Notes under the pieces: generated by a model
What the model was told of the DNA's origin: nothing
The model's database searches: none
What the model saw: the letters and a program-made list of their open reading frames with translations, nothing else
From: Geodermatophilus amargosae
Lineage (GTDB): Bacteria; Actinomycetota; Actinomycetes; Mycobacteriales; Geodermatophilaceae
Assembly: GCF_900116515.1 (NCBI RefSeq)
Contig: NZ_FPBA01000002.1
Span: forward strand, 248,001 to 312,000
Direction: 5' to 3'
DNA length: 64,000 nt
Shown: positions 11,332-61,119 of the stretch, piece by piece
How positions within the stretch are numbered: position 1 is the stretch's first letter
Layout: every line of letters begins with the position of its first letter
Program-made: the position numbers and the translations under genes

Positions 11332-11385
11332 GGCCCCGTCCCGGGTCCCACCCTGAGCGTGCGAAGGGTGGGGAGGACGGGGTCC
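11332..11385 (-). repeat. Conserved-loop hairpin repeat, copy A
   Basis: Two nested stems: outer GGCCCCGTCC with GGACGGGGTC (11332-11341/11375-11384), inner CCCACCCT with AGGGTGGG (11347-11354/11365-11372). The loop is GAGCGTGCGA. It ends 5 nt before the helicase stop codon read on the minus strand, so it is the first structure in that transcript's 3' end. Copies B and C elsewhere keep the loop while both stems change in a compensated way. Confidence 0.72.
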
Positions 11386-11389
11386 TTAC

Positions 11390-12865
11390 TCAGTCACGCG
11401 CAGGTGCCGGACGGTCGCCCCGCCCGCCGCGCGAGCCCTCACCGGGGCCGCGGTAGCGGTCACGGTCGCCGGAGGGCCGGCGGGGCCGCTCGCCGTCCCG
11501 GCGGGGACGGTCGCCGCCCTCGCCGTAGGACCGGCGGGGACGCTCGCCGTCCCGGCGCGGACGCCGGCCGGCGGGACCGCCGTGCGGACGGCGCGACTCA
11601 CGGGCGGGCCGCTCGATCGGCTCGACCGCCACGCCCTTGGCCACCAGGTCGGTGATCGGGGCGTCGCCGGGGCGGATGCGGTCGACACTCGGGTCGACCT
11701 TCGCCTGCCGGAACCGGCGCTTGGCCTGACCGACCTGGTCGGGCAGCAGCAGCGAGACCACGACACCGGCGGCACCGGCCCGGGCGGTGCGGCCCGAGCG
11801 GTGCAGGTAGGTCTTGTGGTCGGCCGGCGGGTCGTAGTGCAGGACCAGCGAGACGTCGTCGACGTGGATGCCGCGGGCGGCGACGTCGGTGGCCACGAGG
11901 ACCGGGCTGCGCGCGTCCATGAACGCCTCGAGCGCCCGCCGCCGGGCCGACTGCGGCAGCCCGCCGTGGATCGCCTCGGCCTTGATGCCGACGGCCTGCA
12001 GGTTCTCGGTCAGCCGGTCGACGCCGAGCTGGGTACGGGCGAACACGATCGTCCGGCCGGGACGGGCAGCGAGCTCCTGGGTCACCGGCACCTTGTCGCG
12101 GAACGCGACGGTGTAGGCGAGGTGCTCGGCCGGCGGGGCGTCGTCGCCGGCCCGCTTGACCTCGTGCCGCGCCGGGTCCTTGAGGTAGCGGCGGACCAGG
12201 CTGTCGACCTCGCCGTCCAGGGTGGCCGAGAACAGCAGCCGCTGGGCGTCGGGGCGGGTCTGGTCGAGCAGCTCCTTGACGACGGGCAGGAAGCCGAGGT
12301 CGGACATGAAGTCGGCCTCGTCGACGACGCTGACCTCGACGTCGGCGAGGGTGGCCTCGCCCTGGCTGATCAGGTCCTGCAGCCGGCCGGGGGTGGCGAC
12401 GACGACGTCGACGCCGCGGCGCAGCTGGGTGATCTGGCGGTACATCGAGGCGCCGCCGTAGACGGTGGCGAACTGCACGCCCATGGCCTGGCCGAGCGGG
12501 GCCAGGGCGTCGGAGACCTGCTGGGCCAGCTCGCGCGTGGGCACGAGGACCAGCGCGCGGGGGGCACGCGGGCCGCGGCGGGCGGTGAGGCCCAGGCGGG
12601 CCAGCATCGGCAGGCCGAAGGCGAGGGTCTTGCCCGAGCCGGTGGCGGCCTTGCCCAGCACGTCACGCCCGGCGAGGGCGTCGGGCAGGACGGAGGTCTG
12701 GATCGCGAACGGGGCCCGGATGTCGCGCCGCTCGAGGGCGGTCACGAGCGGCTGGGGCAGGCCCAGCTGGGCGAAGGTGGGACCGGTCGGCTCGGGAGCC
12801 GGCGCGGGGGTGTTCTCGGTGTCGAACTGGGTGTCGACGACGTCGACGGGGTCGATCAAGGACAT
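11390..12865 (-). CDS. DEAD-box ATP-dependent RNA helicase
   Basis: Superfamily 2 RNA helicase of about 491 residues. The Q motif is in FAIQTSVLPDALAG, the Walker A is ATGSGKT, then PTRELA, TPGR, the DEAD box (VVDEADFM), SAT, and in domain 2 ATDVAARGI and HRSGRTARAG. The C terminus is a basic Arg/Gly tail with repeated RPRRDGER units, as in RhlE/CsdA-like helicases that act on structured RNA or ribosome precursors. I chose the ATG reading MSLIDP; an upstream ATG at 12988 lies inside a GC palindrome and lacks a ribosome site. The gene ends at the repeat copy A hairpin. It stands alone between convergent and same-strand neighbours. Confidence 0.9.
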   Translation of the reverse strand: MSLIDPVDVVDTQFDTENTPAPAPEPTGPTFAQLGLPQPLVTALERRDIRAPFAIQTSVLPDALAGRDVLGKAATGSGKTLAFGLPMLARLGLTARRGPRAPRALVLVPTRELAQQVSDALAPLGQAMGVQFATVYGGASMYRQITQLRRGVDVVVATPGRLQDLISQGEATLADVEVSVVDEADFMSDLGFLPVVKELLDQTRPDAQRLLFSATLDGEVDSLVRRYLKDPARHEVKRAGDDAPPAEHLAYTVAFRDKVPVTQELAARPGRTIVFARTQLGVDRLTENLQAVGIKAEAIHGGLPQSARRRALEAFMDARSPVLVATDVAARGIHVDDVSLVLHYDPPADHKTYLHRSGRTARAGAAGVVVSLLLPDQVGQAKRRFRQAKVDPSVDRIRPGDAPITDLVAKGVAVEPIERPARESRRPHGGPAGRRPRRDGERPRRSYGEGGDRPRRDGERPRRPSGDRDRYRGPGEGSRGGRGDRPAPARD

Positions 12866-12989
12866 GCGGGTGTGGGACTCCGATACAGCTCGGGCGCGTC
12901 CCGTGGTGGTGGGTGGGCGCCGTCGATCGGCGTCCTCACGGCGGCCACCGGCCCGGACGGGGCGGTCGACCTGCACGGATGCGCTCATG

Positions 12990-13008
12990 CCCGGACGGAC
13001 CGTCCGGG
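12990..13008. promoter_or_regulatory. Perfect 9-bp palindrome upstream of the helicase
   Basis: CCCGGACGG, one A, then CCGTCCGGG. It lies about 125 nt upstream of the helicase start, in the gap to the adenosine deaminase gene. It could be an operator or a 5'-leader hairpin; nothing decides between these. Confidence 0.35.
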
Positions 13009-13087
13009 AGGATGACCGGCGAGTGCCGGCACCTCCACGATAACAGCGGCGATCACCGCGCCGTTCCGGCTCCCGCGGTGGCCGTGC

Positions 13088-14167
13088 TCACCCCGCCCGC
13101 AGCGCGTCGAATCCCGGCCGCACCACCTCGGTGAGCAGCCGGGTCCGCGCGGCGTCGTCGAGGAAGGCCGCGGCCAGTGCCCGCTCGGTCACCGTCTGCA
13201 CGTCGTCCCAGCCCCAGCCGTGGACGGCGGCGACGTCGGCCACCTCGCTGGTCACCGAGACGCCGCTCATCAGCCGGTTGTCGGTGTTGACCGTGACCGT
13301 GAAGCCGAGGGCGTGCAGCCGGGCGATCGGGTGGGCGGCCAGCGAGGGGTAGGCGCCGGTCTGCACGTTCGACGACGGCGCGACCTCCAGCGGCACGGCC
13401 TCGTCGAGGACCCGCTGCGCGACCGGGCCGAGCGGGCCGTCCCCTGGCACCTCGTCGGCGATCCGGATGCCGTGGCCCAGCCGCTCAGCGTGGGCGCCGT
13501 CGAGGGCGGCGCGGATGCTGTCGATGCCGGCGGCCTCCCCCGCGTGGATGGTCCGGTGCACGCCGGCCCGGTCGAGCAGCGCGATGGCCTCGGGGTGCCG
13601 GTCGGGCGGGAAGCCGATCTCCGGTCCGGCGAGGTCGAAGCCGACGACGCCGGCGTCCCGGTACCGCACGACGAGGCCGGCGACCTCCTCCCAGCGGTCG
13701 TTCTGCCGCATGGCACAGAGCAGCGCGCCGACGGTGATCGGCGTGCCCGCGGCGGTGGCGGCGGCGCTCCCCGCGGCGAACCCGTCGAGGATCGCCTCCA
13801 CGGCTTCCTCGATCGGCGTCCCGCCCGCGGTGAGCAGCTCGGGGGCCATGCGCACCTCGGCGTACACGACGCCGTCGGCGGCCAGGTCGAGCGCGCACTC
13901 CCGGGCCACCCGTCGCACGGCCTCGGGCCGCTGCATCACGCCGACGGTGTGCGCGAACGTCTCCAGGTAGCGCACCAGCGAGCCGGAGTCGGCGGCCTCC
14001 TGGAACCAGGTGCCCAGCTTCGCGGCGTCGCCGGTCGGGAGGTCGCGGTAGCCCGCCTCGTCGGCGAGCTCGATCACCGTCTGAGGCCGCAGCCCGCCGT
14101 CGAGGTGGTCGTGCAGGAGGACCTTCGGAGCGCGGCGGATCGAGTCGGCGTCGAGCGGTGCGGGCAC
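13088..14167 (-). CDS. add: Adenosine deaminase
   Basis: 359-residue zinc amidohydrolase converting adenosine or deoxyadenosine to inosine forms. Metal ligands are in HDHLDGGL near the N terminus (the HxH pair), HAGEA around the middle, and VNTDNR near the end. PSSNVQTG is the family's adenine-pocket loop. The start GTG has no ribosome site, but TACGGT lies 6 nt before it, suggesting leaderless expression. A frame extension upstream into low-complexity sequence is rejected. Nearby nucleoside transporter, cdd and deoA genes make a salvage neighbourhood; the same group (Rv3313c-Rv3315c) is close together in mycobacteria, from memory. Confidence 0.92.
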   Translation of the reverse strand: MPAPLDADSIRRAPKVLLHDHLDGGLRPQTVIELADEAGYRDLPTGDAAKLGTWFQEAADSGSLVRYLETFAHTVGVMQRPEAVRRVARECALDLAADGVVYAEVRMAPELLTAGGTPIEEAVEAILDGFAAGSAAATAAGTPITVGALLCAMRQNDRWEEVAGLVVRYRDAGVVGFDLAGPEIGFPPDRHPEAIALLDRAGVHRTIHAGEAAGIDSIRAALDGAHAERLGHGIRIADEVPGDGPLGPVAQRVLDEAVPLEVAPSSNVQTGAYPSLAAHPIARLHALGFTVTVNTDNRLMSGVSVTSEVADVAAVHGWGWDDVQTVTERALAAAFLDDAARTRLLTEVVRPGFDALRAG

Positions 14168-14173
14168 CCGGAG

Positions 14174-14179
14174 ACCGTA
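14174..14179 (-). promoter_or_regulatory. -10 box for leaderless add transcript
   Basis: TACGGT on the minus strand, preceded by TGTA, ends 6 nt before the GTG start of add. Confidence 0.45.
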
Positions 14180-14328
14180 TACAGCCGCCGGTCGGGAGCC
14201 GGGGACGGCAGGGAGTGCGAGGGGACCGGTCGCGGGGGCCCGGAGGGCCTCCCGACCGGGACACGGGAGGGGTCCAGCGGCAGCCGGGACGGCACCTGGC
14301 CGCGGTGTCGTCCGGTAGGACGACGATG

Positions 14329-15165
14329 TCACCGGGTGCCGCGCTCCTGCCAGCGGAAGGTCAGGACGCACAGCACCAGCCCGGCCAGGCACCAGGCGCC
14401 CAGCACGAGGGCCACCCGGCCGAGCTCCCACGTCCCCGCCGGCTCCTGCGCGGCGAGCGCGTCGGGCAGGAACACCGAGCGCAGGCCCTGCGCCATCCAC
14501 TTGAGCGGGAAGACCGACGCGACCGTCTGCATCCAGACCGGCACCTGGCTGAACTGGAAGAAGACCCCGGAGATGAACTGCAGCACCAGCGCGATCGGCG
14601 TCACGGTGGCCGACGCCGAGCGGCCGTTGCGCGCCAGGCTCGACACCGCGATGCCCAGCAGCGTGCACGCCGCGGCGCCGAGCGCGGTGACCCAGGCGAA
14701 GGTCAGCCAGTCCGCCCCGGAGGGCAGCTGGACGTCGTAGAAGACGACGCCGACCAGCAGCAGGATCGCGATGATGAGCACCGTGACGGCGAGGACCTGC
14801 ACGACCTTGCCGACGAAGTAGGCACTGCGCGGCATCGGGGTGCCGTAGAGCGACTTGAGCGTGCCGTCGGCGCGCTCGGTCGCGATGGAGATCGCCATGT
14901 TCTGCAGGCTCGCGCCCAGGATGCCCGCGGCGATCACCCCGGCCACGAAGTACTGGATGAAGGTGACCCCGCTGCCGAGGTCGTAGTCGAGCACCGCGCC
15001 GAACACGACCAGCAGCAGCACGGGGAACACGAGGGTGAAGACCACCGACTCGCGCTGCCGGAAGAACTCCTTGAGCTCCACCCCGGCGCGGGAGCGGTAG
15101 ACGGCGGCCATCGAGGGCAGCGCCGTCCTGGGCTGGGTCGTCCCCGTCGCCGGCACGGCGCTCAC
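14329..15165 (-). CDS. ABC-2 type transporter permease
   Basis: 278-residue membrane protein of the ABC-2 exporter family, with about six helices. After an N-terminal amphipathic region (RSRAGVELKEFFRQRESVVF) come VFPVLLLVVFGAVLD, the family-typical GTPMPRSAYFVGKVVQV loop, and a C-terminal hydrophobic helix ending FRWQERGTR. The GTG start overlaps the ATPase stop by 4 nt (GTGA), so the two make one exporter operon. The substrate (drug, lipid or polysaccharide) cannot be told. It lies between the thymidine phosphorylase and adenosine deaminase genes but has no evident salvage role. Confidence 0.88.
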   Translation of the reverse strand: MSAVPATGTTQPRTALPSMAAVYRSRAGVELKEFFRQRESVVFTLVFPVLLLVVFGAVLDYDLGSGVTFIQYFVAGVIAAGILGASLQNMAISIATERADGTLKSLYGTPMPRSAYFVGKVVQVLAVTVLIIAILLLVGVVFYDVQLPSGADWLTFAWVTALGAAACTLLGIAVSSLARNGRSASATVTPIALVLQFISGVFFQFSQVPVWMQTVASVFPLKWMAQGLRSVFLPDALAAQEPAGTWELGRVALVLGAWCLAGLVLCVLTFRWQERGTR

Positions 15166-16073
15166 GCGCGGTCCTCCCCGATCATCTGCAGGTACACGTC
15201 CTCGAGGGTCGGCCGGGCCACCGCCAGGTCGGGCACCTCGCCGGGGAAGCGCGCGGCCAGGTCGCGGACGAACGCCGTCGGGGTCGCGGTGGCCTCGGAG
15301 CGCCGGGCGCCGCCCTCGGTCCAGGTGACCACGGCCGGTGCCCGGCCCCGCCCGCCCAGCTCCGAGGGGACGGCGACCTCCGCCAGCCGGCCGCGGGCGA
15401 TGACGCCCACGCGGTCGGCCAGCGCCTCGGCCTCGTCGAGGTAGTGGGTGGTCAGCAGCATCGTGGTGCCGAGGTCGCGCAGCGAGCGGATCAGCGACCA
15501 GAACTGCCGGCGGGCCTCGGGGTCGAAGCCGGTGGTCGGCTCGTCGAGGAACAGCAGGGTCGGGCGGCCGACGATGCCCAGCGCGACGTCGAGCCGGCGG
15601 CGCTGACCGCCCGACAGCGACCGGCCCCGCGAGCGCGCCTTCTCCGTCAGCCCGACCAGCTCGAGCACCTCGTCGGGGTCGCGCGGGTCGGGGAAGTAGG
15701 ACGCCTGGGCGCGCAGCAGCTCGCGGCAGGTCAGCTGGCTGTCGCCGGCGCCGGACTGCAGCACGATGCCCAGCTGCGCCTTCCAGCGGCGCCCGCCCGA
15801 GGCCGGGTCGGTGCCCAGCACGCGCACCTCGCCGCCGTCCCGGTCGCGGAAGCCCTCGCAGATCTCGACCGTCGTCGTCTTGCCGGCGCCGTTCGGGCCC
15901 AGCAGCGCGAAGATCTCGCCGCGCCGGATGTCGAGGTCCAGGCCGTCGACGGCGGTCGAGGCGCCGTAGCGCTTCACCAGCCCGCGGACGGAGATGGCCG
16001 CGTCCGGATCCGGCTCCCTCCCGGGTACCGCCGCGAGCCCGCCAGGGGCGGGGAGGAGGGAGTCCTGCTGCAC
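15162..16073 (-). CDS. ABC transporter ATP-binding protein (ABC-2 exporter)
   Basis: 303-residue nucleotide-binding subunit. The Walker A is GPNGAGKTT, the signature is LSGGQRRRLD, the Walker B is LLFLDEPTTGFD with its glutamate present, and the H-loop histidine is in TTHYLDEAE. The C-terminal extension (after GVIARGRLAEV) ends with the DrrA/CcmA-type tail reading PTLEDVYLQM. I use the GTG reading VQQDSLLP, which has GGGGAGGA about 12 nt upstream; longer starts add an Arg-rich stretch. It is coupled to the downstream permease. Daunorubicin-type drug export and antibiotic-peptide export are both possible. Confidence 0.88.
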   Translation of the reverse strand: MQQDSLLPAPGGLAAVPGREPDPDAAISVRGLVKRYGASTAVDGLDLDIRRGEIFALLGPNGAGKTTTVEICEGFRDRDGGEVRVLGTDPASGGRRWKAQLGIVLQSGAGDSQLTCRELLRAQASYFPDPRDPDEVLELVGLTEKARSRGRSLSGGQRRRLDVALGIVGRPTLLFLDEPTTGFDPEARRQFWSLIRSLRDLGTTMLLTTHYLDEAEALADRVGVIARGRLAEVAVPSELGGRGRAPAVVTWTEGGARRSEATATPTAFVRDLAARFPGEVPDLAVARPTLEDVYLQMIGEDRA

Positions 16074-16142
16074 GAGGGTCCAGTGTCCTCCCCTGTTGCG
16101 GAGCGGCGCCGACCGCCTCCGGTGCGGGCACCACCGCCCGAC

Positions 16143-16208
16143 GATCACGGAGCTGCGGGAACGACGCACCGGTCGCAGGCGGCGTGTCGCCGCCGCGGCC
16201 CCGTGATC
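16143..16208 (-). terminator. Possible terminator downstream of deoA
   Basis: An outer 8-bp inverted repeat (GATCACGG at 16143-16150, CCGTGATC at 16201-16208) encloses an inner hairpin GGCGGCG-TGT-CGCCGCC at 16178-16194. It lies between the deoA stop and the ABC exporter start on the minus strand. Confidence 0.4.
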
Positions 16209-16235
16209 ACCGGGAGGGGACGCCCCCGGTCCTCC

Positions 16236-17507
16236 TCAGACCGAGATGCGGTCCAGCAGCAGGGGCAGCGGCTCGTCGCCGGTGTCGACGCCGACCGCGT
16301 CCTCCAGCGCCTCCAGGGCCCGCGGGATGCGCGCGGCGTCGTCGGTGTGCAGCTCCAGCAGCGGCTGCCCCTCGGTCACCTGCTCCCCCACCGTCGCCGT
16401 CCAGGTGACGCCGGCGGCGGCCGAGACCGGGTCCTCCTTGCGCGCCCGGCCGGCGCCCAGCCGCCAGGCGGCGACACCGAGGGCGTAGGCGTCCAGGCGG
16501 GTGAGCGTGCCGGTGGCCGGGGCGGTCACCACGTGCCGCTCGGCCGGCTGCGGCAGCGGCGCGTCGGGGTCCCCGCCCTGGGCGGCGATCATCCGGCGCC
16601 ACACGTCCATCGCCCGGCCGTCGCGCAGCGCGTCGGCGGGGTCGACGTCGGGCCGCCCGGCACCGGTGAGCATCTCCCGCGCCAGGGCCAGCGTGAGCTC
16701 GACGACGTCGGCCGGTCCGCCCCCGGCCAGCACCTCCACCGACTCGGCCACCTCGACGGCGTTGCCCGCGGCGCGGCCGAGCGGGCGGTCCATCGCGGTC
16801 ACCAGCGCCACGGTGTTGACGCCGGCCGCCTCGCCGAGGCCGACCATCGTGCGGGCCAGCTCGCGGGAGGCCTCGGCGTCCTTCATGAACGCCCCGGACC
16901 CGGTCTTGACGTCGAGCACCAGCGCGTCGGCGCCCTCGGCGATCTTCTTGCTCATGATCGAGCTGGCGATCAGGGGGATCGACTCGACCGTCGCGGTCAC
17001 GTCGCGCAGCGCGTAGAGCTTCTTGTCCGCCGGCGCGAGGTCGTGCCCGGCCGCGCAGATGACCGCGCCCACCTCGGCCAGCTGCCGCAGGTAGGCCTCC
17101 TCGTGCACGTCGGCGCGCCAGCCCGGGATGGCCTCGAGCTTGTCCAGCGTGCCGCCGGTGTGGCCCAGTCCCCGCCCCGACAGCTGCGGGACCGCCACCC
17201 CGCACGCGGCGACCAACGGCGCGAGCGGCAGCGTGGTCTTGTCGCCCACGCCGCCGGTGGAGTGCTTGTCCGCCGTCGGCCGGCCCAGCGAGGACAGGTC
17301 CTTGCGCTCGCCGGAGTCGATCATCGCCTGGGTCCAGACGGCGAGCTCGCCGCCGTCCATCCCGCGGAAGAACACCGCCATGAGCAGCGCGCTCATCTGC
17401 TCGTCGGGGACGGTGCCGTCGGTGTAGGCGCCGATCACCCAGCGGATCTGCTCGTCGGTCAGCCGCTGCCCGTCGCGCTTGGCGCGCAGCACGTCGATGG
17501 CGTCCAT
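16236..17507 (-). CDS. deoA: Thymidine/pyrimidine-nucleoside phosphorylase
   Basis: 423-residue class II nucleoside phosphorylase converting thymidine (or deoxyuridine) and phosphate to the base and deoxyribose 1-phosphate. The phosphate/nucleoside site reads KHSTGGVGDKTTL near residue 80, followed by LSGRGLGHTGGTLDKLE, ALRDVTATVESIPLIASSI and DVKTGSGAFM, all family hallmarks. It begins 2 nt after the cdd stop, so cytidine deamination and phosphorolysis run in sequence. It closes the operon that begins with the BMP lipoprotein and the nucleoside ABC transporter. Confidence 0.94.
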   Translation of the reverse strand: MDAIDVLRAKRDGQRLTDEQIRWVIGAYTDGTVPDEQMSALLMAVFFRGMDGGELAVWTQAMIDSGERKDLSSLGRPTADKHSTGGVGDKTTLPLAPLVAACGVAVPQLSGRGLGHTGGTLDKLEAIPGWRADVHEEAYLRQLAEVGAVICAAGHDLAPADKKLYALRDVTATVESIPLIASSIMSKKIAEGADALVLDVKTGSGAFMKDAEASRELARTMVGLGEAAGVNTVALVTAMDRPLGRAAGNAVEVAESVEVLAGGGPADVVELTLALAREMLTGAGRPDVDPADALRDGRAMDVWRRMIAAQGGDPDAPLPQPAERHVVTAPATGTLTRLDAYALGVAAWRLGAGRARKEDPVSAAAGVTWTATVGEQVTEGQPLLELHTDDAARIPRALEALEDAVGVDTGDEPLPLLLDRISV

Positions 17508-17509
17508 GC

Positions 17510-17926
17510 TCAGCCCTGCCCCCGCTCGGCCGCGGCCACGAGGTCCTCAGGGCCGAACGCGTCGGGCAGCACCTCTCGCATCGGCACGATGCCCAGGGAC
17601 ACCGTCTCGATGAGCATCCCCCCGCCGCCGTGCTCCCACAGCAGCTGGCGGCAGCGGCCGCACGGCATGAGCGGCTGCCCGTCCCCGCCGACGCACGCCA
17701 CCGCGACCAGCCGGCCGCCGCCGGTGCGGGCGAGGTCGCTGACCATCCCGCACTCGGCACACAGGCCCAGGCCGTAGCTGGCGTTCTCGACGTTGCACCC
17801 GGTGACCACCCGGCCGTCGTCGACCAGCCCGGCCACGCCCACGGGGAACCGCGAGTACGGCGCGTAGGCGTGCGTCATGGCCTCCCGGGCCGCCGCACGC
17901 AGGGCCTCCCAGTCGACGTCCTCCAC
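17510..17926 (-). CDS. cdd: Cytidine deaminase
   Basis: 138-residue homotetrameric-type zinc enzyme deaminating cytidine and deoxycytidine. CNVENASYG contains the first zinc ligand region with its glutamate, and PCGRCRQ supplies the other two cysteines. The N terminus has the substrate motif AYAPYSRFPVG. The GTG start shares one base with the permease stop (TAGTG) and has GAGGGGAG upstream. Its product uridine or deoxyuridine is a substrate for the adjacent thymidine/pyrimidine phosphorylase. Confidence 0.94.
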   Translation of the reverse strand: MEDVDWEALRAAAREAMTHAYAPYSRFPVGVAGLVDDGRVVTGCNVENASYGLGLCAECGMVSDLARTGGGRLVAVACVGGDGQPLMPCGRCRQLLWEHGGGGMLIETVSLGIVPMREVLPDAFGPEDLVAAAERGQG

Positions 17927-37592: not shown

Positions 37593-38324
37593 TCAGCCCT
37601 CGACCAGGGCGCCGTACGCGGCGGCGACCTGGACGGCCTGGACGAGGTCGAGCCGGACGCCGGTGAGCTCCAGCGCCCGCCACGGCACCGCCTCGGTGGC
37701 GGCGCCCCGCAGGTCGCTGCCGCGCAGCTTCGTGCCCTGCATGCGGACCCGGTCGAGGTCGGCGCCGGTGAGGTCGCACTCGCGCAGGTCGGTGTCGGTC
37801 AGGTCCGCCTCGCGGAAGCGCTGACCGGACAGGTCGCTGCCCGACAGGTCGACCCCGCGCAGCGACGTCCAGCTCCAGTCGGTGTCGGTGCTGGTCAGCG
37901 GCCGCAGGACGGCACCGGGGAACTGCGAGCCGGTGAGCTTGCAGCCGTCCCAGACGACGTCGATGAGCCGCGCGCGGTCGAACCGGCAGGACAGGAACGC
38001 GCTGCCGGAGTGCCGCGAGCCCCCCATCCGCACGCCGGTGAGGACGCAGGAGTCGAAGACGCAGCGGCGGGTGACGACCTCGGTGAGGTCGGCGTCGTCG
38101 AAGCGGCAGCGGGTGAAGGTGACGCCGTCGAGCTCCGCGCCCCACCAGTCGACGCGGGCGAGGTCGACGTCCTCGACCTCCTCCCCCGGCCCGGGCGGAC
38201 GCAGGTGCGGTCGTGGCCCCGGGGAGGGGCCCGCCGCGAGCTTGCGGGGGGTGGGTGGCACGCGGCCCCCTCGCAGGGGTCCGCTGCGGGCCTGCGAGGG
38301 GCGGGGGGCGAGGGGGTCCTTCAT
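37593..38324 (-). CDS. Pentapeptide-repeat protein
   Basis: Up to 243 residues. From about residue 65 the sequence follows the A(D/N)LXX right-handed-helix pattern, for example LRGVDLSGSDLSGQ, READLTDTDLREC and LTGADLDRVRMQG. Pentapeptide proteins can mimic DNA or act as scaffolds; function here is unknown. The start is doubtful: the ATG encoding MKDPLAPRPSQ lies within hairpin repeat copy B, so the first 20 residues are translated repeat sequence. A GTG at residue 22 is an alternative start, and the folded repeat begins well downstream of either. Confidence 0.75.
   Translation of the reverse strand: MKDPLAPRPSQARSGPLRGGRVPPTPRKLAAGPSPGPRPHLRPPGPGEEVEDVDLARVDWWGAELDGVTFTRCRFDDADLTEVVTRRCVFDSCVLTGVRMGGSRHSGSAFLSCRFDRARLIDVVWDGCKLTGSQFPGAVLRPLTSTDTDWSWTSLRGVDLSGSDLSGQRFREADLTDTDLRECDLTGADLDRVRMQGTKLRGSDLRGAATEAVPWRALELTGVRLDLVQAVQVAAAYGALVEG
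38264..38319 (-). repeat. Conserved-loop hairpin repeat, copy B
   Basis: Outer stem GGCCCCCTCGC with GCGAGGGGGTCC (38264-38274/38308-38319). Inner stem is weaker (CCGC with GCGG). The loop GGGCCTGCGA keeps the family pattern with a purine change at its second base. It lies 6 nt beyond the purN-purH stop on the minus strand and runs into the first codons of the pentapeptide gene. Confidence 0.7.
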
Positions 38325-38325
38325 C

Positions 38326-40479
38326 TCAGTGGGCGAAGTGGCGGGTCCCGGTGAGGTACAGCGGGACGCCGGCCGTGCGCGCCGCGGCGACGACCTCCTC
38401 GTCGCGCACCGAGCCGCCCGGCTGCACCACCGCGCGCACGCCGGCGTCGAGCAGCACCTGCAGGCCGTCGGCGAACGGGAAGAACGCGTCGGAGGCGGCC
38501 ACCGACCCCGCGGCCCGCTCCCCCGCCCGCGTCACCGCGAGGCGGGCGGCGTCGACCCGGTTGACCTGTCCCATCCCGACGCCGACGGTCGCCTTGTCGT
38601 GGGCCAGCAGGATCGCGTTGCTGCGCACCGCGCGTACGCTGCGCCACGCGAAGACGAGGTCGTCGAGGCCGGCGGGGTCCAGCGGCTCCCCGCACGCCAG
38701 CGTCCAGGTGGTCGGGTCGTCGCCGGCGGCGTCGATGCGGTCCGCGGTCTGCACGAGCATCCCGCCGCTGATCGGCCGGAACTCGACGGGGTCGGGCTGC
38801 TCGGCAGGCACCCGCAGCAGCCGGACGTTCTTCTTCGCGGTCAGCGCGGCGAGGGCGTCCTCGGTGAACGACGGCGCCGCGACGACCTCGGTGAACACCC
38901 CGGCCACCTGCTCGGCCATGGCCAGGTCGACCTCGCGGTTGGCGGCGATGACCCCGCCGAAGGCCGAGACCGGGTCGCAGGCGTGCGCCTTGCGGTGGGC
39001 CGAGGCGATGTCGGCGCCGACGGCGATCCCGCACGGGTTGGCGTGCTTGATGATCGCCACGCACGGGTCGCGGTGGTCGTGGGCGGCCCGCCAGGCGGCG
39101 TCGGTGTCGACGTGGTTGTTGTAGGACATCTGCTTGCCGTGCAGCTGCTCGGCGTGCGCCAGGCCCGGCCGCCCGTGCCGGTAGAGCGCCGCGCGCTGGT
39201 GGGGGTTCTCGCCATAGCGCAGCACGTCGGCGCGCTCCCAGCTGCCGCCGGTCCAGGCCGGGAAGCCGGTCTCGTCGTCGGGCGCGAGGACGCTGCCCAT
39301 CCAGGAGGCGACGGCGATGTCGTAGCTCGCGGTGTGCCGGAACGCGGCCACGGCCAGCCGCTGCCGCTCGGCGAGGGTGAAGCCGCCGGCGGTGACCGCG
39401 GCGAGCACGTCGTCGTAGCGGGACGGGTCGACGACGACGGCGACCGACGGGTGGTTCTTCGCTGCGGCCCGCACCATCGCCGGGCCGCCGATGTCGATCT
39501 GCTCCACGCACTCGTCCGGCGTCGCGCCCGAGGCCACCGTCTCGGTGAACGGGTAGAGGTTGACCACCACGAGGTCGAAGGCGGCGATGCCGAGCTCCTC
39601 GAGCTGGCTGACGTGGTCGGCCTTGCGGCGGTCGGCGAGGATGCCGGCGTGCACGGCCGGGTGCAGCGTCTTGACCCGCCCGTCGAGGCACTCGGGGAAG
39701 CCGGTGACCTGCTCGACCGGGGTGACCGGCACGCCGGCGTCGGCGATCCGCCGGGCGGTCGCGCCGGTGCTCACCAGCTCGACGCCGGCGCCGGCCAGCC
39801 CGCGGGCAAGGTCCTCGATCCCTGCCTTGTCGTAGACACCCAGCAGCGCGCGGCGGATCGGGGTGCGGTCGCTCATCGGGGGCTCCTCCGTCGTCCCGGT
39901 GACGAGTCGCGCCACCGTCTCCACCAGGAGCGTGCGCTCCACGGCCTTGATCCGTTCGTGCAGGCGGTCCTCGTCGTCGCCGGGCAGCACCGGCACCTCG
40001 CGCCGGGCGAGCACCGGCCCGGTGTCCACGCCTGCGTCGACCAGGTGCACCGTGCTGCCGGTGACGTCCACGCCCGCGGCCAGCGCGTCGCGGACGGCGT
40101 GCGCGCCGGGGAAGGCCGGCAGCAGGGCGGGGTGGGTGTTGACCAGCCGGCCCTCGTAGCGGGCCAGGACGGCAGGACCGACGATCTTCATGAACCCGGC
40201 GGACACCACCAGGTCGGGCCCGTGCGCGGCGATCGCGTCGGCCAGCGCGACGTCCCAGGCGCCCCGGTCGGGGAAGTCGCGCAGCCGCACGGTGAAGACC
40301 GGCAGGCCGCGGCGGCGGGCGTGCTCCAGGCCGGGGGCCTCGCGGTCCGCGCCGACGGCGACCACCCGCGCCGGGTAGCCGGCGTCGTCGGCGGCCTCGA
40401 GCAGCGCCGCGCACAGCGACCCGGCGCCCGAGAGCAGGACGACGACCCGCGCCCGCGGTGGAGACTCGGGGCCGGGCAC
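38326..40479 (-). CDS. purH: PurN-PurH continuous reading frame (GAR transformylase + AICAR transformylase/IMP cyclohydrolase)
   Basis: One uninterrupted 717-codon frame holds two purine enzymes. Residues 1-195 are PurN, phosphoribosylglycinamide formyltransferase: [10 protein letters not shown] (phosphate loop), [12 protein letters not shown] and [12 protein letters not shown] with its catalytic Asp. From residue 202 ([19 protein letters not shown]) begins PurH, with the IMP cyclohydrolase domain (GGRVKTLHP-type: [14 protein letters not shown]) and then AICAR transformylase (YGENPHQ, KHANPCG). No stop separates them. A strong GGAGGA lies 8 nt before the internal ATG at 39876, so PurH may also be made alone. 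PurN and PurH are separate proteins in most bacteria, including the equivalent mycobacterial genes. Confidence 0.9.
39876..39892 (-). promoter_or_regulatory. Internal ribosome site before the purH ATG
   Basis: On the minus strand GGAGGA is followed by about 8 nt and then ATG at 39876, inside the continuous purN-purH frame. It would allow free PurH to be translated as well as the fusion. Confidence 0.55.
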
Positions 40480-51534: not shown

Positions 51535-51543
51535 AGACACACC

Positions 51544-51549: not shown

Positions 51550-51627
51550 GTTCGGAGGAGCGACAGGACCGCCCGACGCCGGGGCAGCTGTGGAGACCTC
51601 CGGCCGTGCTGTGGCACACTCTGCGCC

Positions 51628-51693: not shown

Positions 51694-51708
51694 GCAGCCG
51701 CCGCAACG

Positions 51709-51739: not shown

Positions 51740-51786
51740 TCTCGTTCCCGGGGTCCGACGGCCACCGTCCCGCCCCGGAGGAAACG

Positions 51787-52092: not shown

Positions 52093-52098
52093 CGGCGA

Positions 52099-52125
52099 TG
52101 TCACACCGCGGGCGGCTGCGTCGTC
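52099..52125 (+). promoter_or_regulatory. ECF41-type sigma factor promoter
   Basis: TGTCACA (52099-52105) and CGTC (52122-52125) are separated by 16 nt, matching the published ECF41 promoter consensus as I recall it. It lies about 33 nt upstream of the first gene of an operon that encodes an ECF41-type sigma factor, as expected for an autoregulated unit. Confidence 0.72.
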
Positions 52126-52157
52126 TCCAGGGCATCCCCGTCGGAGAGGACGCCGTC

Positions 52158-54354: not shown

Positions 54355-54366
54355 CCGCCGCGGACG

Positions 54367-54406
54367 CGACGACGGGGCCGGCCCCGGAGGACCGGCCCCG
54401 TCGTCG
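54367..54406. terminator. Bidirectional hairpin terminator
   Basis: Perfect 15-bp stem CGACGACGGGGCCGG with a 10-nt loop between the convergent PIG-L and M28 peptidase genes. Confidence 0.75.
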
Positions 54407-54412
54407 GGGGTG

Positions 54413-56104: not shown

Positions 56105-56122
56105 CCCGTTCCCCCTCGTCAG

Positions 56123-56150
56123 GTCCGCCGGGCCACGATGACCGGCGGAC
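56123..56150 (-). other. Hairpin in the leader of the M28 gene
   Basis: Perfect 9-bp stem GTCCGCCGG with a 10-nt loop, 19 nt before the ATG on the minus strand. It could influence mRNA stability or be an operator. Confidence 0.4.
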
Positions 56151-56259
56151 ACGTCCCGGTTCCCGATCGGGCGAGGATGGTCCGGGGCGGTCAGGAGGTA
56201 CAGGGCCGCTGCCGACCGTCGGAGGACGGCGTCCACGGGTCCGGAGCTCCCCTCGTCCG

Positions 56260-56289
56260 CCTGTGAGACTGCTGAGAGCCAGCTGAGAG
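56260..56289 (-). promoter_or_regulatory. Three 11-bp-phased direct repeats upstream of the M28 gene
   Basis: On the minus strand CTCTCAGC, CTCTCAGC and CTCACAGG recur at exactly 11-bp intervals (plus-strand starts 56282, 56271, 56260). Phasing of one helical turn is typical of OmpR/PhoP-family response regulators. The site lies about 155 nt upstream of the peptidase start. Confidence 0.5.
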
Positions 56290-56393
56290 GCGTGCCCCAC
56301 CGATCACCGGAGGAGTGTGACGCCGGACACGCCACCGCCATCTCCTGACGCTGCGTGACCGGCGCGGGACGGTCTGCTGCCCGCCGGACCACC

Positions 56394-57047
56394 TCAGAGC
56401 AGACGGTTGGTGGCCGCCCAGCGGGTGAGCTCGTTGCGGTTGGACAGCTGCAGCTTGCGCAGCACGTTCGACGCGTGCGACTCCACGGTCTTCACCGAGA
56501 TGAACAGCCGCGAGCCGATCTCCCGGTAGGTGTAGCCGCGGGCCAGCAGCTGCATGACCTCGCGCTCGCGGGCGCTGAGCAGGTCCAGGCCGGGGTCGGT
56601 GGCCGGGTCCTCGGCCGGAGCCGACGGCGTGCTGGCGGCGAAGGCGTCGAGCACGAAGCCGGCCAGCCGGGGGCTGAAGACGACGTCGCCCTCGGCCACG
56701 CGCTGCACCGCGGACCGGAGGTCCGGCCCGGAGATGGTCTTGGTGACGTAGCCGCGGGCGCCCGCGCGGATGACCGCGATGACGTCCTCGGCGGCGTCGG
56801 ACACCGACAGCGCCAGCCAGCGCACCTCGGGCAGCTCCGTGCGCAGCGTCTCGAGCACGGCGCGGCCGCCTCCGCCGGGGAGGTGGACGTCGAGCAGCAC
56901 GACGTCGGGACGGGCGGCCCGGATGCCGGCGATCGCGGCGTCGGCGTCGGCGGCCTCGCCCACGACGGTGACGGAGTCGCCGAGCTCGGCGCGGACGCCG
57001 GCGCGGACCATCGCGTGGTCGTCGACGAGGAAGACGCGGGTGCTCAC
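56394..57047 (-). CDS. NarL/LuxR-family response regulator
   Basis: 217-residue two-component regulator. The receiver domain (1-120) has the acidic pair in VFLVDDHAMVR, the phosphorylated Asp in VVLLDVHLPGG and the Lys in GYVTKTI. The C-terminal LuxR helix-turn-helix is about 155-210 (LSAREREVMQLLARGYTYREIGSRLFISVKTVESH). The GTG start overlaps the kinase stop (GTGA). It is the natural partner of the upstream kinase and is expected to act on envelope-stress genes. Confidence 0.93.
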   Translation of the reverse strand: MSTRVFLVDDHAMVRAGVRAELGDSVTVVGEAADADAAIAGIRAARPDVVLLDVHLPGGGGRAVLETLRTELPEVRWLALSVSDAAEDVIAVIRAGARGYVTKTISGPDLRSAVQRVAEGDVVFSPRLAGFVLDAFAASTPSAPAEDPATDPGLDLLSAREREVMQLLARGYTYREIGSRLFISVKTVESHASNVLRKLQLSNRNELTRWAATNRLL

Positions 57048-58357
57048 GCGGCCGCCTCGCGCGGCAGCACGAGCTCGACCTCGGTGCCCTCGCCGGGCGC
57101 CGAGCGCACCGTCGCCGTCCCGCCCAGGCGGGCCAGCCGGCCGGTCACCGAGTCGCGCAGGCCGCGGCGGTCGGCGGGGACGGTCGCCGGGTCGAACCCG
57201 GCGCCGCGGTCGCGGACGTACACCGACACCGACTGCGCACCCACCTCGGTGTAGAGGTCGGCCGAGGTGACCCCGGCGTGCTTGGCGGCGTTGAGCAGCG
57301 CCTCCCGGGTGGCCGCGCCGAGGGCGGCCAGTGCGTCGTCGAGGGGGGCGTCACCGACGACCACCGGGTCGACGGTCAGCGCGTGGTCGCCCTCCACCTC
57401 GGCGACCATCTGCGAGACCAGCGCCGCCCAGGTGCCGCCGCCGGCCGACGACGCCGGCTCGTAGAGCCAGCTGCGCAGTTCGCGCTCCTGGCTCCGGGCC
57501 AGCCGGGCGACGGCCTGGTGGTCGCCGGCGTGCCGCTGGATGAGCGCGAGGGTCTGCAGCACCGAGTCGTGCAGGTGCGCGGCGACCGCGGCCCGCTCCT
57601 CGGAGCGGACGCGCGCGGTGCGCTCGGCCTCGCGCGAGTCCAGCAGCCGCCGCCAGAACGGCGCGGTGGCCAGCACGACGCCGACCAGGATGACGATGGT
57701 GGCGACGAAGCCGTTGCGGGCGGCGGCCAGCTGGCCGGTGGTGGCGAGCAGCAGCACCAGGCCGAGCGCGGCGAGCACCGCGCCTCCGGCGAGCACCCAC
57801 CGCACGCCGGGGCGGGCCAGCGTGCTGTCGGTGTCCAGTTGCCGCCAGATGACGGCCAGCCCGCCGCCGACCAGCAGCAGCGGGGCGATGAGGTCGTTGC
57901 TGCCCCAGGTGGCGAGGTTGGTGACCAGCACGAGCGCGCCGAGGCCGAAGAACGCCAGCCCGACGGCCTGCCGGCGACTCGGCTGGGACGTGGCGCCGGG
58001 GGCCACCTCGCCCAGCGGCACGAAGAACCACAGCACCGCGTAGGCGACGACGCCGATGCCGGTCACCGCGAGGACGACGAACGCCGCACGGACGACGAGC
58101 GGGTCGGTGCGCAGGTGTGCCGCCGTCCCCGCCGCGACCCCGGCGAGCAGCCGTCCCGACCGCGGGCGCACGAGCGGCGGGCGGGTGTCCGCCGACGCGG
58201 TCACCACGGCGGTCGCCCCCGCGGACACCAGGACGCCGCCGGTCGCCGCGGGGGCGCCGTCGGGCGGCGCCGGAGCTGCTGTGGGCACGGCGACGGGACC
58301 GACCGGCGGCGGAGCACCGGCCGGCGTCCCGCCCGGAGTGGGCGCCGTCCTCGTCAC
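57044..58357 (-). CDS. Sensor histidine kinase with N-terminal PspC domain
   Basis: 437-residue membrane kinase. A Pro/Ala-rich start of about 60 residues precedes a PspC domain (RPRSGRLLAGVAAGTAAHL, then VLAVTGIGVVAYAVLWFFVPLG). Further helices follow. The HisKA_3-type dimer domain carries AAHLHDSVLQTLALIQ with its phosphohistidine. The ATPase part has ALLNAAKHAG (N box), VRDRGAGFDP and a C-terminal GEGTEVELVLPRE. It resembles LiaS-type kinases. It is divergent from a separate PspC-LiaF-like protein, a pairing expected to sense cell-envelope stress. Confidence 0.9.
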   Translation of the reverse strand: MTRTAPTPGGTPAGAPPPVGPVAVPTAAPAPPDGAPAATGGVLVSAGATAVVTASADTRPPLVRPRSGRLLAGVAAGTAAHLRTDPLVVRAAFVVLAVTGIGVVAYAVLWFFVPLGEVAPGATSQPSRRQAVGLAFFGLGALVLVTNLATWGSNDLIAPLLLVGGGLAVIWRQLDTDSTLARPGVRWVLAGGAVLAALGLVLLLATTGQLAAARNGFVATIVILVGVVLATAPFWRRLLDSREAERTARVRSEERAAVAAHLHDSVLQTLALIQRHAGDHQAVARLARSQERELRSWLYEPASSAGGGTWAALVSQMVAEVEGDHALTVDPVVVGDAPLDDALAALGAATREALLNAAKHAGVTSADLYTEVGAQSVSVYVRDRGAGFDPATVPADRRGLRDSVTGRLARLGGTATVRSAPGEGTEVELVLPREAAA

Positions 58358-58482
58358 GGCACCGATCGTCGCACCGCAGGGACCCCGCCCGGTACCGGGA
58401 AGACCCCGGACGGGCCGGACCAGGGTCGGATGGGGGCCTTCCCCGATGTCGCACGGGACGGCGGACGGGGACGCTCTGTGCC

Positions 58483-59361
58483 ATGACCGCCCCGTTCCCT
58501 CCTCCCGCTCCGTCCCTCGAGCCCCCGCCACCCGTCCGGCCCACGCTTCGGCGCAGCCGCAGCGACAAGATGGTCGGCGGCGTCGCCGGCGGGCTGGCCG
58601 AGTACAGCGGCGTCGACCCGCTGCTGTGGCGCGTCGGCTTCGTCGCCCTGACCCTCGCGGGCGGCACCGGCGTCCTCGTCTACGTGCTGCTCCTGCTCCT
58701 CATGCCCAGGGCGCCGCGCCGCGCCGCCCTCGACGGCGCACCCGCCGAGCCGCCCGGGCCGCGCTCCCCCGTCGCCGGGCTGACCGTCGCGGGCCTGCTC
58801 ATCGCCGTCGGGCTGATGGTCCTGGTGACCCGCTACACCGACCTCGAGCCCGGGCCCCGCGGCTTCCTCGCCACCGCGCTCCTCGTCGTCGGCCTGGGCC
58901 TGGTCGCCTCGGCGGTGACCCGGGCACGGGCGCCACGCGGCGGACTGATCGCGCTGGGCTCGGTGCTCACGCTGGCGCTGCTGTTCACCTCGGCGGTCCC
59001 CACGTTGACCGAGGACGCCGGTGTCGGGGACCGGGAGTACCAGCCGGCCACCGCGGAGGACGTCCGCCCGGTCTACCGCCTGGGCGCCGGCGACATGGAC
59101 GTCGACCTGTCCCGCGTCGACGTCGACGACCTCGACGAGCCGATCGAGGTCCGCATCGAGATGGGCGCGGGCGACCTCGACGTGGTCGTCCCCGCCGACG
59201 CCGACGTCCGGATCGAGGTGGAGCACGGCATCGGCGAGACCGAGGTGTTCGGGGACAGCTCCGGTGAGGGCTACTACCGGGCGCCCGGCGGCGACGACGA
59301 ACCCGAGTTCGTCCTGAGCTTCGACCACGGGGTCGGCGACCTGGAGGTGTCCCGTGCCTGA
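58483..59361 (+). CDS. PspC-domain protein with LiaF-like C-terminal domain
   Basis: 292 residues. Residues 20-75 are a PspC domain (RRSRSDKMVGGVAGGLAEYSGVD, then a helix). Three or four further helices lie between 90 and 165. The C-terminal 110 residues form a beta-rich LiaF/DUF4097-like ('toast-rack') domain with repeated acidic strands: YRLGAGDMDVDLSRVDVD, IEMGAGDLDVVVPADADV and VLSFDHGVGDLEVSRA. In Gram-positives LiaF inhibits LiaS. Here the kinase itself also has a PspC domain and is transcribed divergently. The next gene overlaps the stop. Confidence 0.85.
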   Translation: MTAPFPPPAPSLEPPPPVRPTLRRSRSDKMVGGVAGGLAEYSGVDPLLWRVGFVALTLAGGTGVLVYVLLLLLMPRAPRRAALDGAPAEPPGPRSPVAGLTVAGLLIAVGLMVLVTRYTDLEPGPRGFLATALLVVGLGLVASAVTRARAPRGGLIALGSVLTLALLFTSAVPTLTEDAGVGDREYQPATAEDVRPVYRLGAGDMDVDLSRVDVDDLDEPIEVRIEMGAGDLDVVVPADADVRIEVEHGIGETEVFGDSSGEGYYRAPGGDDEPEFVLSFDHGVGDLEVSRA

Positions 59362-59653
59362 CTACAGCGAGTTCCCCACCACCCCGACGGCCTGGCAGGA
59401 GCGCGCGCTGGCCGAGGACTGGCAGCACGGCTCCACCCTCCTGCCGGTCGAGCAGCCGCCCCGGCGCCGCGTCGACCTGGTGGCCCTGGTGCCCGGCGTC
59501 GCCTTCGTCGTCCTCGCGCTGGTCTTCCTCGCCGGGGTCACCGTGCCGCTCGGCTTCCTGGCCGACGGCGGGCTGCTGTGGCTGGTCCTGGTCGGCGTCG
59601 GCGTGGCGCTGATGGTCAGCGAGCTGCGGAGGGCGCGCCGCAGGCGCGGCTGA
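59354..59653 (+). CDS. Small two-helix membrane protein
   Basis: 99 residues: an aromatic hydrophilic N terminus (DYSEFPTTPTAWQERALAEDW), two helices (about 43-63 and 68-88), and a short Arg-rich tail. The GTG overlaps the upstream stop by 8 nt, so it belongs to the PspC/LiaF-like transcript. I do not know its function; it may assist the envelope-stress module. A strong hairpin follows. Confidence 0.72.
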   Translation: MPDYSEFPTTPTAWQERALAEDWQHGSTLLPVEQPPRRRVDLVALVPGVAFVVLALVFLAGVTVPLGFLADGGLLWLVLVGVGVALMVSELRRARRRRG

Positions 59654-59672
59654 CCGCACGGGGCGGACAGGA

Positions 59673-59709
59673 CGAGGGCCCGGGGAGCGACGAGCTCCCC
59701 GGGCCCTCG
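59673..59709. terminator. Bidirectional hairpin terminator
   Basis: Perfect 16-bp stem CGAGGGCCCGGGGAGC with a 5-nt loop, between the convergent small membrane protein and dienelactone-hydrolase-like genes. Confidence 0.78.
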
Positions 59710-59716
59710 CGCGTCC

Positions 59717-60301
59717 TCAGCCGGTGACCCGGTCGACGAAGGCCAGCGCCTCGCGCCAGAGCCGCTCGGTGGCCGCCGCGTCGTACTCGGCGGGCAGGCC
59801 CGGGTCGGTGAACAGGTGACCGTCGACCGGGTACTCGAACACCTCCAGCTCACCGCCGGCCGCGGCCACGTCGTCCGCGAGGGCCCGATCCCACTCGTCG
59901 GACCGGAACGGGTCTCCGGTCGCCCGGTGCAGCTGCGCCGGGAGCCCGGCCGGCCAGGACGGCGCCCCGAGGACCGCCATCGGCAGCGCCCCGGAGACCA
60001 GCAGCACGCCGCTGACCCGGCGCTGCGTGGCCACGGACTCGGCCATCCCGGCGCCGTTGGAGAAGCCGGCGGACACGAACCCGTCGGGCAGGTCGCGGAC
60101 GGCGTCGGCCGCCCGCGCCATCAGCGCCGGGAAGCCGACCTCCTCCACGTACGCGCCGGCCGTGCCGTAGTCGTCGAAGACCCGCCCGTCGTACTGGTCG
60201 ACGACGAGGACCTCGTGCCCGGCGGCCCGCAGCCGGGCGGCGGCATCGGTGACGCCCTCGCGGACGCCGAGGACGGAGTGGAAGAGCGCGACGGTCGACA
60301 T
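59717..60301 (-). CDS. Dienelactone hydrolase-family protein
   Basis: 194-residue alpha/beta-hydrolase of the DLH family. ALFHSVLGVREGVTDAA is the first strand. The nucleophile region reads SAGFSNGAGMAES, with Ser in the place often held by Cys in true dienelactone hydrolases. The acid is near ATGDPFRSDEWDRALAD and the His in YPVDGHLFTDPG. The nearby ATG (MSTVALFH) is used; an upstream start adds basic low-complexity sequence. It is divergent from a WYL regulator across an 8-bp inverted repeat. Substrate unknown. Confidence 0.83.
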   Translation of the reverse strand: MSTVALFHSVLGVREGVTDAAARLRAAGHEVLVVDQYDGRVFDDYGTAGAYVEEVGFPALMARAADAVRDLPDGFVSAGFSNGAGMAESVATQRRVSGVLLVSGALPMAVLGAPSWPAGLPAQLHRATGDPFRSDEWDRALADDVAAAGGELEVFEYPVDGHLFTDPGLPAEYDAAATERLWREALAFVDRVTG

Positions 60302-60322
60302 GGACCCACGGTGACGGAGGGT

Positions 60323-60344
60323 CGGTGACACCGTCCTGTCACCG
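60323..60344. promoter_or_regulatory. Operator-like 8-bp inverted repeat
   Basis: CGGTGACA-CCGTCC-TGTCACCG is perfect and lies in the 64-bp gap between the divergent hydrolase and WYL-regulator genes. It is the best candidate site for the regulator. Confidence 0.6.
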
Positions 60345-60365
60345 TCTCCTGCGACGATCCGGAGC

Positions 60366-61052
60366 GTGAACCGCACCGACCGGTTGCACGCGCTGACCGA
60401 GGAACTGCGCCGGGCCGGCCCGCGCGGGCGGACGGCGCAGCGGCTGGCGGCGTGGCTGGAGGTCTCGCCGCGCACGGTCAAGCGCGACGTCGGCGCCCTA
60501 CAGCAGGCCGGCGTCCCGATCTGGGCCAGCTCCGGTCCCGGCGGCGGCTACGTCCTCGACGCCGCGGCCACGCTCCCGCCGGTGAACCTCACGCCGGCGC
60601 AGGCCGTGGCGGTCGCCGTGGCGCTGGCCGGCGCAGCGGACGCGCCGTTCGCCGTCGACGGCCGCGCGGCGCTGGAGAAGGTGCTCGACGTGCTCGGCCC
60701 GCAGGCCCGCGCGGAGGCGGAGCGGCTGGGCGGACGGGTGTGGGTGCGGTCGCGCGCGGACGGCCGCCCCGACCCGGCGCCGGTGGTGGAGCAGGCGCTG
60801 GCGAGCCGCCGCGTCGTCGCGATCACCTACCGCGACCGCCGGGGGACGACGTCGCGCCGGCGGGTGGAGCCGCACCTGCTCGCCCGCACCGGCGACCGCT
60901 GGTACCTGGTCGGCTGGTGCCGCGAGCGCGACGCCCCGCGCTGGTTCCGGTGGGACCGCATCGAGGCCGCCGCCCTCACCCCGGAGCCCGCACCCGAGCG
61001 CGACCCGGCCGTCTACGGAACCCCGCCTCCGGACGCGCACGCCGTCAGGTGA
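60366..61052 (+). CDS. YafY-type HTH/WYL-domain regulator
   Basis: 228-residue regulator. Residues 1-60 are a DeoR-like winged helix (RTAQRLAAWLEVSPRTVKRDVGALQQAGVPIWASSG). The WYL domain is about 140-220 (VAITYRDRRGTTSRRRVEPH, then DRWYLVGWCRERDAPRWFRWDRI), which binds nucleic-acid or small ligands in other members. GGAG lies directly before the GTG start. The divergent dienelactone-hydrolase-like gene and the intervening inverted repeat suggest local control. Confidence 0.88.
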   Translation: MNRTDRLHALTEELRRAGPRGRTAQRLAAWLEVSPRTVKRDVGALQQAGVPIWASSGPGGGYVLDAAATLPPVNLTPAQAVAVAVALAGAADAPFAVDGRAALEKVLDVLGPQARAEAERLGGRVWVRSRADGRPDPAPVVEQALASRRVVAITYRDRRGTTSRRRVEPHLLARTGDRWYLVGWCRERDAPRWFRWDRIEAAALTPEPAPERDPAVYGTPPPDAHAVR

Positions 61053-61063
61053 GGCGCTGGAAC

Positions 61064-61119
61064 GGCCCCGTCGCAGGGGCCCACGCCGAGCCTGCGAGGC
61101 GTGGGGGGCGACGGGGTCC
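61064..61119 (-). repeat. Conserved-loop hairpin repeat, copy C
   Basis: Outer stem GGCCCCGTCGC with GCGACGGGGTCC (61064-61074/61108-61119). Inner stem CCCACGCC with GGCGTGGG (61080-61087/61098-61105). Loop GAGCCTGCGA. It is the best-paired copy. It lies 2 nt beyond the guaA stop on the minus strand. Confidence 0.75.

Follow-up and report, generated by a model that had tools for sequence, protein, structure and literature searches.

Introduction

The described system closest to the sequences analysed here is that of the repetitive extragenic palindromic elements (REPs; GTAG and CGTC superfamilies, with the REP-associated tyrosine transposases, RAYT/TnpA-REP). In the parts of the literature drawn on here, GTAG REPs are often the source of the TAG stop codon in neighbouring open reading frames (ORFs; PMC3733652), TnpA-REP recognises folded single-stranded REPs with stem mismatches (PMC8266576), and 446 of the 4,072 predicted REPs of Escherichia coli lie within 15 nt of a stop codon, with ribosome stalling attributed to REPs at this distance (PMC12306157, citing Liang 2015). 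Neither Geodermatophilus nor Actinobacteria is mentioned in the main text of a survey of REPs, and a search of the open PMC literature, outside which most subscription papers lie, returned no description of such repeats in Geodermatophilaceae. Here we analyse hairpins from a 64,000-nt stretch of the Geodermatophilus amargosae genome (RefSeq assembly GCF_900116515.1, contig NZ_FPBA01000002.1, positions 248,001 to 312,000; hereafter the window), three of which had been singled out in an earlier reading of the letters alone (the sequence-only reading). As with REPs, these are short imperfect hairpins with stem irregularities, present at high copy number and often near gene ends; unlike REPs, they have a two-tier stem, a conserved 10-nt loop, copies lying within each other's loops and a tight register with stop codons. 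They form a large dispersed family that, within this sampling, is confined to Geodermatophilaceae; its stems covary, its copies nest, and it is present at some gene ends and missing from their orthologues. The hairpins probably belong to a mobile palindromic element that is non-autonomous and reaches high copy numbers in this bacterial family.

A hairpin family with a constant loop and covarying stems

All three hairpins were located where the sequence-only reading had placed them, at 11332, 38264 and 61064. Their ranges and scores come from covariance model R1, which was built from an alignment of ten copies (A2):

11332..11388, minus strand: hairpin copy 1 (83.2 bits), directly 3' of the stop codon of a helicase-like gene
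38264..38322, minus strand: hairpin copy 2 (63.1 bits), 3 nt past the stop of a purN-purH frame; inner stem degraded
61064..61122, minus strand: hairpin copy 3 (75.3 bits), whose first base falls within the TAG stop of guaA

Measured from the stop codon, the three copies begin at about -1 to +3 nt, which replaces the spacing of 2-6 nt given earlier. The shared loop and common end are as had been described: the gene strand reads (G)AAGGACCCC..TCGCANGCTC..GGGGCC, the reverse complement of the claimed loop and GGGGTCCT end. Across copies, the gene-strand consensus is RAGG-A-CCCC-outer stem-inner stem-TCGCNNGCTC-inner stem-outer stem-GGGGCC, about 57 nt in all, with TCGCNNGCTC as the nearly constant 10-nt loop. 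The A between GG and CCCC is unpaired (bulged) in 79 of 87 copies, and the fourth inner pair is an A·C mismatch in 44 of 88. A literal pattern run over both strands of the whole genome gave nine matches and its reversed control none, which rules out chance as the explanation.

The claim that the stems covary was borne out in both alignments. In A2, pairing holds in 94% of cells, and in 6 of 19 pairs both sides have changed, with far lower values in slid registers; four of the five covariation measures lie above all 500 shuffles, the fifth (further pair types) being 7 against 6.8 (346 of 500). The larger alignment A5 contains 88 copies from 1.64 Mb, with locus L161 left out, and was fitted to R1 and so is biased towards the R1 structure; here covariation is seen in 14 of 18 pairs and pairing in 92.3% of cells, all five measures exceed all 500 shuffles, and doubly changed cells number 222, compared with 75 for the shuffles and 5-16 when the register is slid. 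Covariation of the inner stems, which had been asserted for all three window copies, thus holds for the family, with the qualification that the inner stem of the 38264 copy is degraded. That no named family matches was also upheld, since Rfam searches of the window and of six loci had no hit over the elements: the whole window gave no match at the gathering threshold, and a permissive search of the six loci gave two matches, neither over an element. A c-di-AMP riboswitch lies elsewhere in the same genome (RF00379; L008 2697-2840, minus strand; 63.5 bits, gathering score 38).

Copy number and taxonomic range

A genome scan gave many further copies, as expected of the dispersed family that had been proposed: at least 142 in the organism's own genome with model R2 at E≤0.001 and at least 143 matches with R1 at E≤1, in both cases among the best 150 candidates scored. 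The 26 copies found in 452 kb of this genome extrapolate to roughly 340 genome-wide. The opposite outcome, in which there were no further copies, or copies had neither stop-codon preference nor covariation, was tested and did not occur.

R1 matches were found in all 26 genomes of the genus, in 8 of 11 from other genera of the family and in none of 24 from other families of the order, and R2 matches in 27 of 36 Geodermatophilaceae genomes. A class-wide search, with strict filters and the best 28 candidates per genome, matched none of 196 other genomes, the organism's own genome being the sole match of 197. Among 71 loci from outside the family there were three weak matches (E 0.4 to 0.81). The nearest named guaA loci belong to Blastococcus, Geodermatophilus and Modestobacter; four of nine carry a clear copy (Candidatus Blastococcus massiliensis, Blastococcus sp. 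MG754426, Geodermatophilus poikilotrophus and G. obscurus), and in G. obscurus the element strand is opposite to guaA. The element may have arisen, or been lost, within Geodermatophilaceae. The nine family genomes without copies represent genera g5, g8 and g10 and are fragmented assemblies of 190 to 550 contigs. Within a further genus, g11, genome G066 has 1 copy and G035 at least 150 (all 150 candidates scored), and this pair offers a natural contrast for tracing a mobilising gene.

Copies abut genuine stop codons

Positions were measured for 146 copies (R2, E≤0.01) from 2.45 Mb of five genomes, in which genes were called with a home-made hexamer caller and copies spanning stretch borders may be lost. 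The majority, 85 of the 146, have their first base at -4 to +8 nt relative to a stop codon on the same strand, and 43 begin exactly at +1; no sense copy begins at +9 to +17. Among the first 102 copies, 94 lie outside called genes and 16 lie 18 to 56 nt from a stop, at least 12 of these looking nested by eye. The 61 copies outside the -4 to +8 range were sorted automatically: 20 have complementary arms on both sides and 6 adjoin another copy, and of the rest 15 fall in codirectional, 9 in convergent and 3 in divergent gaps and 8 inside called genes; by eye, some of the gap copies are nested copies or missed gene ends. Across the five genomes, between 2.7 and 4.7% of called gene ends carry the element. 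The sequence-only reading had placed it at minus-strand gene ends in a constant orientation; the sense orientation stands, while the minus strand is only the strand of those particular genes. Copies occur on both strands, and there is no significant strand bias beyond that of the gene in the five genomes.

Of the 336,497 intergenic bases, 101,236 lie in divergent gaps, which contain 2,674 stop-like trinucleotides (against 2,257 called genes), yet only 3 of the 146 copies lie there, and the stop-like trinucleotide as sole target was therefore rejected. Counter to that rejection, a stop trinucleotide occurs at the corresponding offsets for 18 of the 61 copies that do not abut a stop, a higher share than the 12,042 of 73,472 random intergenic positions; some of these 18 could be gene ends that the caller missed. 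Placement seems to depend on a genuine gene end, the letters of a stop codon alone being insufficient. An over-representation of TAG at filled sites appeared in genome G000 (9/18 versus 54/421) but not in G017 (2/13), G009 (0/11) or G024 (4/34), with 2/9 in G023, and was dropped. The register itself could come from an insertion preference or from selection, both being possible.

Close relatives differ in which gene ends carry the element

Genomes G000, G009 and G017 have 95-96% median protein identity over the stretches compared. An abutting copy is present in both members of 9 and in one only of 13 among 343 orthologue pairs of G000 and G017; the corresponding counts are 3 and 11 of 276 for G000 and G009, and 3 and 8 of 242 for G017 and G009. 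The last residues of the protein agree in 30 of the 32 one-sided pairs (which derive from 23 filled genes and so are not independent; the two exceptions are counted), indicating that the stop codon is ancestral. The possibility that the element supplies the stop codon was accordingly rejected for most sites. At 21 of the 32 partner sites, neither a motif of the element (searched to 110 nt) nor a scored copy (to 200 nt) was found.

Individual genes follow the same pattern. The end of the helicase-like gene at copy 1 carries the element in G009 and G017 too, and the purN-purH end at copy 2 has none in G009. The 3' end of guaA, a gene with matches in 57 of 57 family genomes, carries it in 9 of 30 loci fetched from a search of those 57; in G009 and G017 it is absent, with GuaA 98% identical. 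Gene ends differ as well between G015 and G024, where aligned blocks are 91.5-96.2% identical: a 220-nt nest of copies stands exactly after a TGA in G015, and ten other bases occupy that place in G024.

Other small sequences were seen at gene ends. A different hairpin directly follows the guaA stop in three other genomes (L174, L183, L190), for which a strict pattern gives six copies in 4 of 57 family genomes. Insertions of about 110-125 nt with GATCAGSTGA-like palindromes lie at gene ends in G015 (contig C10 near 59 kb, L335) and G024 (311787-311897), and also at the 3' ends of gene 160 in G009 and gene 119 in G017; these look like a second small mobile element.

Copies lie within the loops of other copies

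Many copies in G024 are broken in the loop by another copy. A junction pattern derived from these cases, CCNCANCGTRGAAGGACC, has 106 matches in 13 of the 26 genus genomes and none for its reversed control. At 30 nested loci (L301-L330) the insert is carried by at least two types of host arm, and by eye the right arm of the host resumes past the insert in 26, with L302, L308 and L323 ambiguous and L324 cut short. A nest at G024 271780 is three deep, and L316 and L323 appear to be so too.

Surroundings of the hairpins in the window

Further features of the window that concern the element are the following:

11390..12865, minus strand: helicase-like gene whose stop adjoins copy 1 (translation and home-made gene caller, the start being the caller's; named by eye, no family search)
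16012..16068, minus strand: fourth copy (R1 61.5 bits), overlapping the predicted N-terminal coding end of an ABC-type ATPase-like gene (15162-16073)
38225..38255, minus strand: inner-hairpin fragment beside copy 2 (R1 25.4 bits, E 0.032, model positions 17-47)
38326..40479, minus strand: PurN-PurH-like uninterrupted reading frame adjoining copy 2 (translation; named by eye, no family search)
61122..62684, minus strand: guaA-like gene whose stop adjoins copy 3 (translation; named by eye and from the earlier reading)

The three copies reported earlier are thus all real, with the copy at 16012-16068 and the fragment at 38225-38255 having been overlooked. The fragment is probably a piece of one more copy. 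The fourth copy may have turned into coding sequence, given its overlap with a predicted N-terminal coding end and its occurrence at the same place in G017. Folded with flanking sequence, copies 1 and 3 adopt the family structure at -35.3 and -38 kcal/mol, and the minimum-energy fold of copy 2 is a different one. The PurN-like and PurH-like sequences at 38326-40479 share one frame without an intervening stop, an apparent fusion.

Discussion

The likely account of these observations is a mobile element whose copies would lodge, sense-oriented, immediately behind genuine stop codons, or take the place of the loop in an earlier copy and so form nests. Its folded single DNA strand would be the substrate of a transposase that recognises the irregular stem and the loop, in the way that TnpA-REP recognises REPs. 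When transcribed, the hairpin, pressed against a terminating ribosome, could affect translation termination and mRNA 3' ends. The family resembles REPs in being a short imperfect palindrome of more than 100 copies (at least 142) that is mainly extragenic, and in its stem mismatches and unpaired bases, the bulged A and the A·C pair described above. As for the pairing of units, 6 of the 146 copies are classed as adjoining another copy and 20 as nested, irrespective of orientation. A GTRG foot is found in 20 of the 146 copies and in 5 of the 85 at gene ends, and the GTRG within CCNCANCGTRGAAGGACC is built into that pattern and is not a family-wide foot. Membership of the REP/RAYT group by its transposase was rejected, PF01797 being absent, and as the tests for a GTAG foot and for a Y1 transposase both failed we call the element REP-like rather than a REP.

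Several observations weigh against mobility. The Y1 transposase domain PF01797 was found in 0 of 57 family genomes, other transposase families, including DDE, not having been searched; it occurs in 5 of 14 genomes of the control rings, and in 0 of 25 genus genomes versus 2 of 16 genomes of other families. A scan of about 2.5 Mb and the fetched loci for an ORF-bearing version found none that was convincing (29 pairs over 1 kb, chance-like), with an insensitive method that recovered 46 ordinary copies. The nested pattern has no match in the window's own genome. Movement was not directly observed, and we infer it from the presence/absence differences, which would arise from it. Comparison of filled and unfilled pairs by eye revealed no evident target-site duplication or clean footprint, and the difference between a filled and an empty site usually extends beyond the element itself. 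In eleven of the 32 one-sided pairs the partner has a motif match or a copy close by; some of these are remnants or rearranged copies, and some of the differences are thus decay or rearrangement. G000 and G017 have 22 orthologous stops that are occupied in at least one of the two, and nine of these are occupied in both. The gene calls, finally, are home-made.

Among the alternatives, the one that survives best is that a REP-like element now serves as an mRNA 3' feature, slowing termination or blocking 3' exonucleases, with selection, and not an insertion preference, leaving mainly those copies that abut a stop; this we regard as possible, on a tentative footing. The register is tighter than a terminator needs, as the gap at +9 to +17 attests, and the stalling reported for E. 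coli REPs near stop codons concerns a similarly stable hairpin just past the stop, the 446 of 4,072 at up to 15 nt described for that species comparing with 85 of 146 at up to 8 nt here. The footprint of a terminating ribosome would cover an element that starts at the stop codon. An effect on termination is therefore plausible. However, orthologous genes of close relatives differ in having the element, which argues against a needed gene-by-gene function, and nests of two to three times the element's length are tolerated.

The register could also have arisen if insertion reads genuine translation stops, as opposed to the letters TGA, TAG or TAA, through the mRNA or the terminating ribosome, for example by way of an RNA intermediate, with loops as a second target and an enzyme that is not of the Y1 type. 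We consider this rather unlikely.

An ordinary miniature inverted-repeat transposable element (MITE) of an undetected DDE-type insertion sequence is improbable. The element is, like MITEs, a small, non-coding, non-autonomous dispersed repeat with complementary arms; unlike them, it is palindromic nearly throughout, a single hairpin rather than terminal repeats around a spacer, and neither a target duplication (pairs compared by eye) nor a parent transposase (the insensitive scan above) was recognised. Neither the tie to real stop codons nor loop-directed nesting is expected of a MITE.

The sequence-only reading had proposed a selected RNA structure acting as a terminator, an mRNA 3'-end stabiliser or a protein-binding site. 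If the hairpin is a protein-binding site, it is most likely a transposase substrate; as mainly a selected RNA or terminator it fares poorly on the lack of a T-tract, the differences among orthologues, the nesting and the absence of a preference for G·U pairs. Lineage-specific intrinsic terminators without a U-tract, kept at gene ends by RNA selection, would account for a GC-rich hairpin of the stability calculated for copies 1 and 3, its sense orientation at gene ends and its stem covariation, and the intrinsic terminators of high-GC actinobacteria are likewise GC-rich hairpins at gene ends. Unlike those terminators, the element has a conserved loop, forms a sequence-related family and varies in presence among close relatives. 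It lacks a T-run: over positions +1 to +22, T exceeds 15 of 85 copies only at +2 (24), +3 (29) and +12 (29). At some sites a separate hairpin, common to the unfilled orthologue, follows the element (by eye), and within 70 nt downstream of the element a hairpin was found for 33 of 85 copies (17 of 85 when shuffled), similar to element-free stops (227 of 711 codirectional, 176 of 397 convergent). The missing T-tract, the many orthologous gene ends without the element and the similar frequency of following hairpins together make termination a less likely main role, and we give this account little credence.

The mismatches bear on which molecule folds. On the gene strand of the 88 copies, A·C mismatches outnumber G·U pairs by 83:15, and two further alignments, the first largely containing those 88 copies, give 100:21 and 40:15. 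A selected gene-strand RNA should favour G·U, and selection on that RNA is hence unsupported, which also tells against a terminator. The fourth inner pair accounts for much of the excess, being A·C in 44 of 88, 52 of 103 and 22 of 44 copies, against 0, 1 and 1 with G·U. The fold may instead matter as a DNA hairpin, an argument that is weak in that the copies are related and the alignments model-fitted. A functional antisense RNA, such as a terminator against antisense transcription, on which the frequent A·C at the fourth inner pair would become U·G, is very improbable, as exclusion of this pair and one other leaves 34:20 and 13:14 in the two further alignments, with no clear wobble preference on either strand.

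If the reading of these hairpins as a mobile REP-like element is right, a whole actinobacterial family has undergone REP-like colonisation without the Y1 transposases proposed to drive REPs, and another mobilising enzyme therefore probably exists. The nesting of copies in their own loops provides a readable record of insertion order and target, and the tie to real stop codons makes it testable whether the element is targeted by translation or held in place by very strict selection at stop codons.

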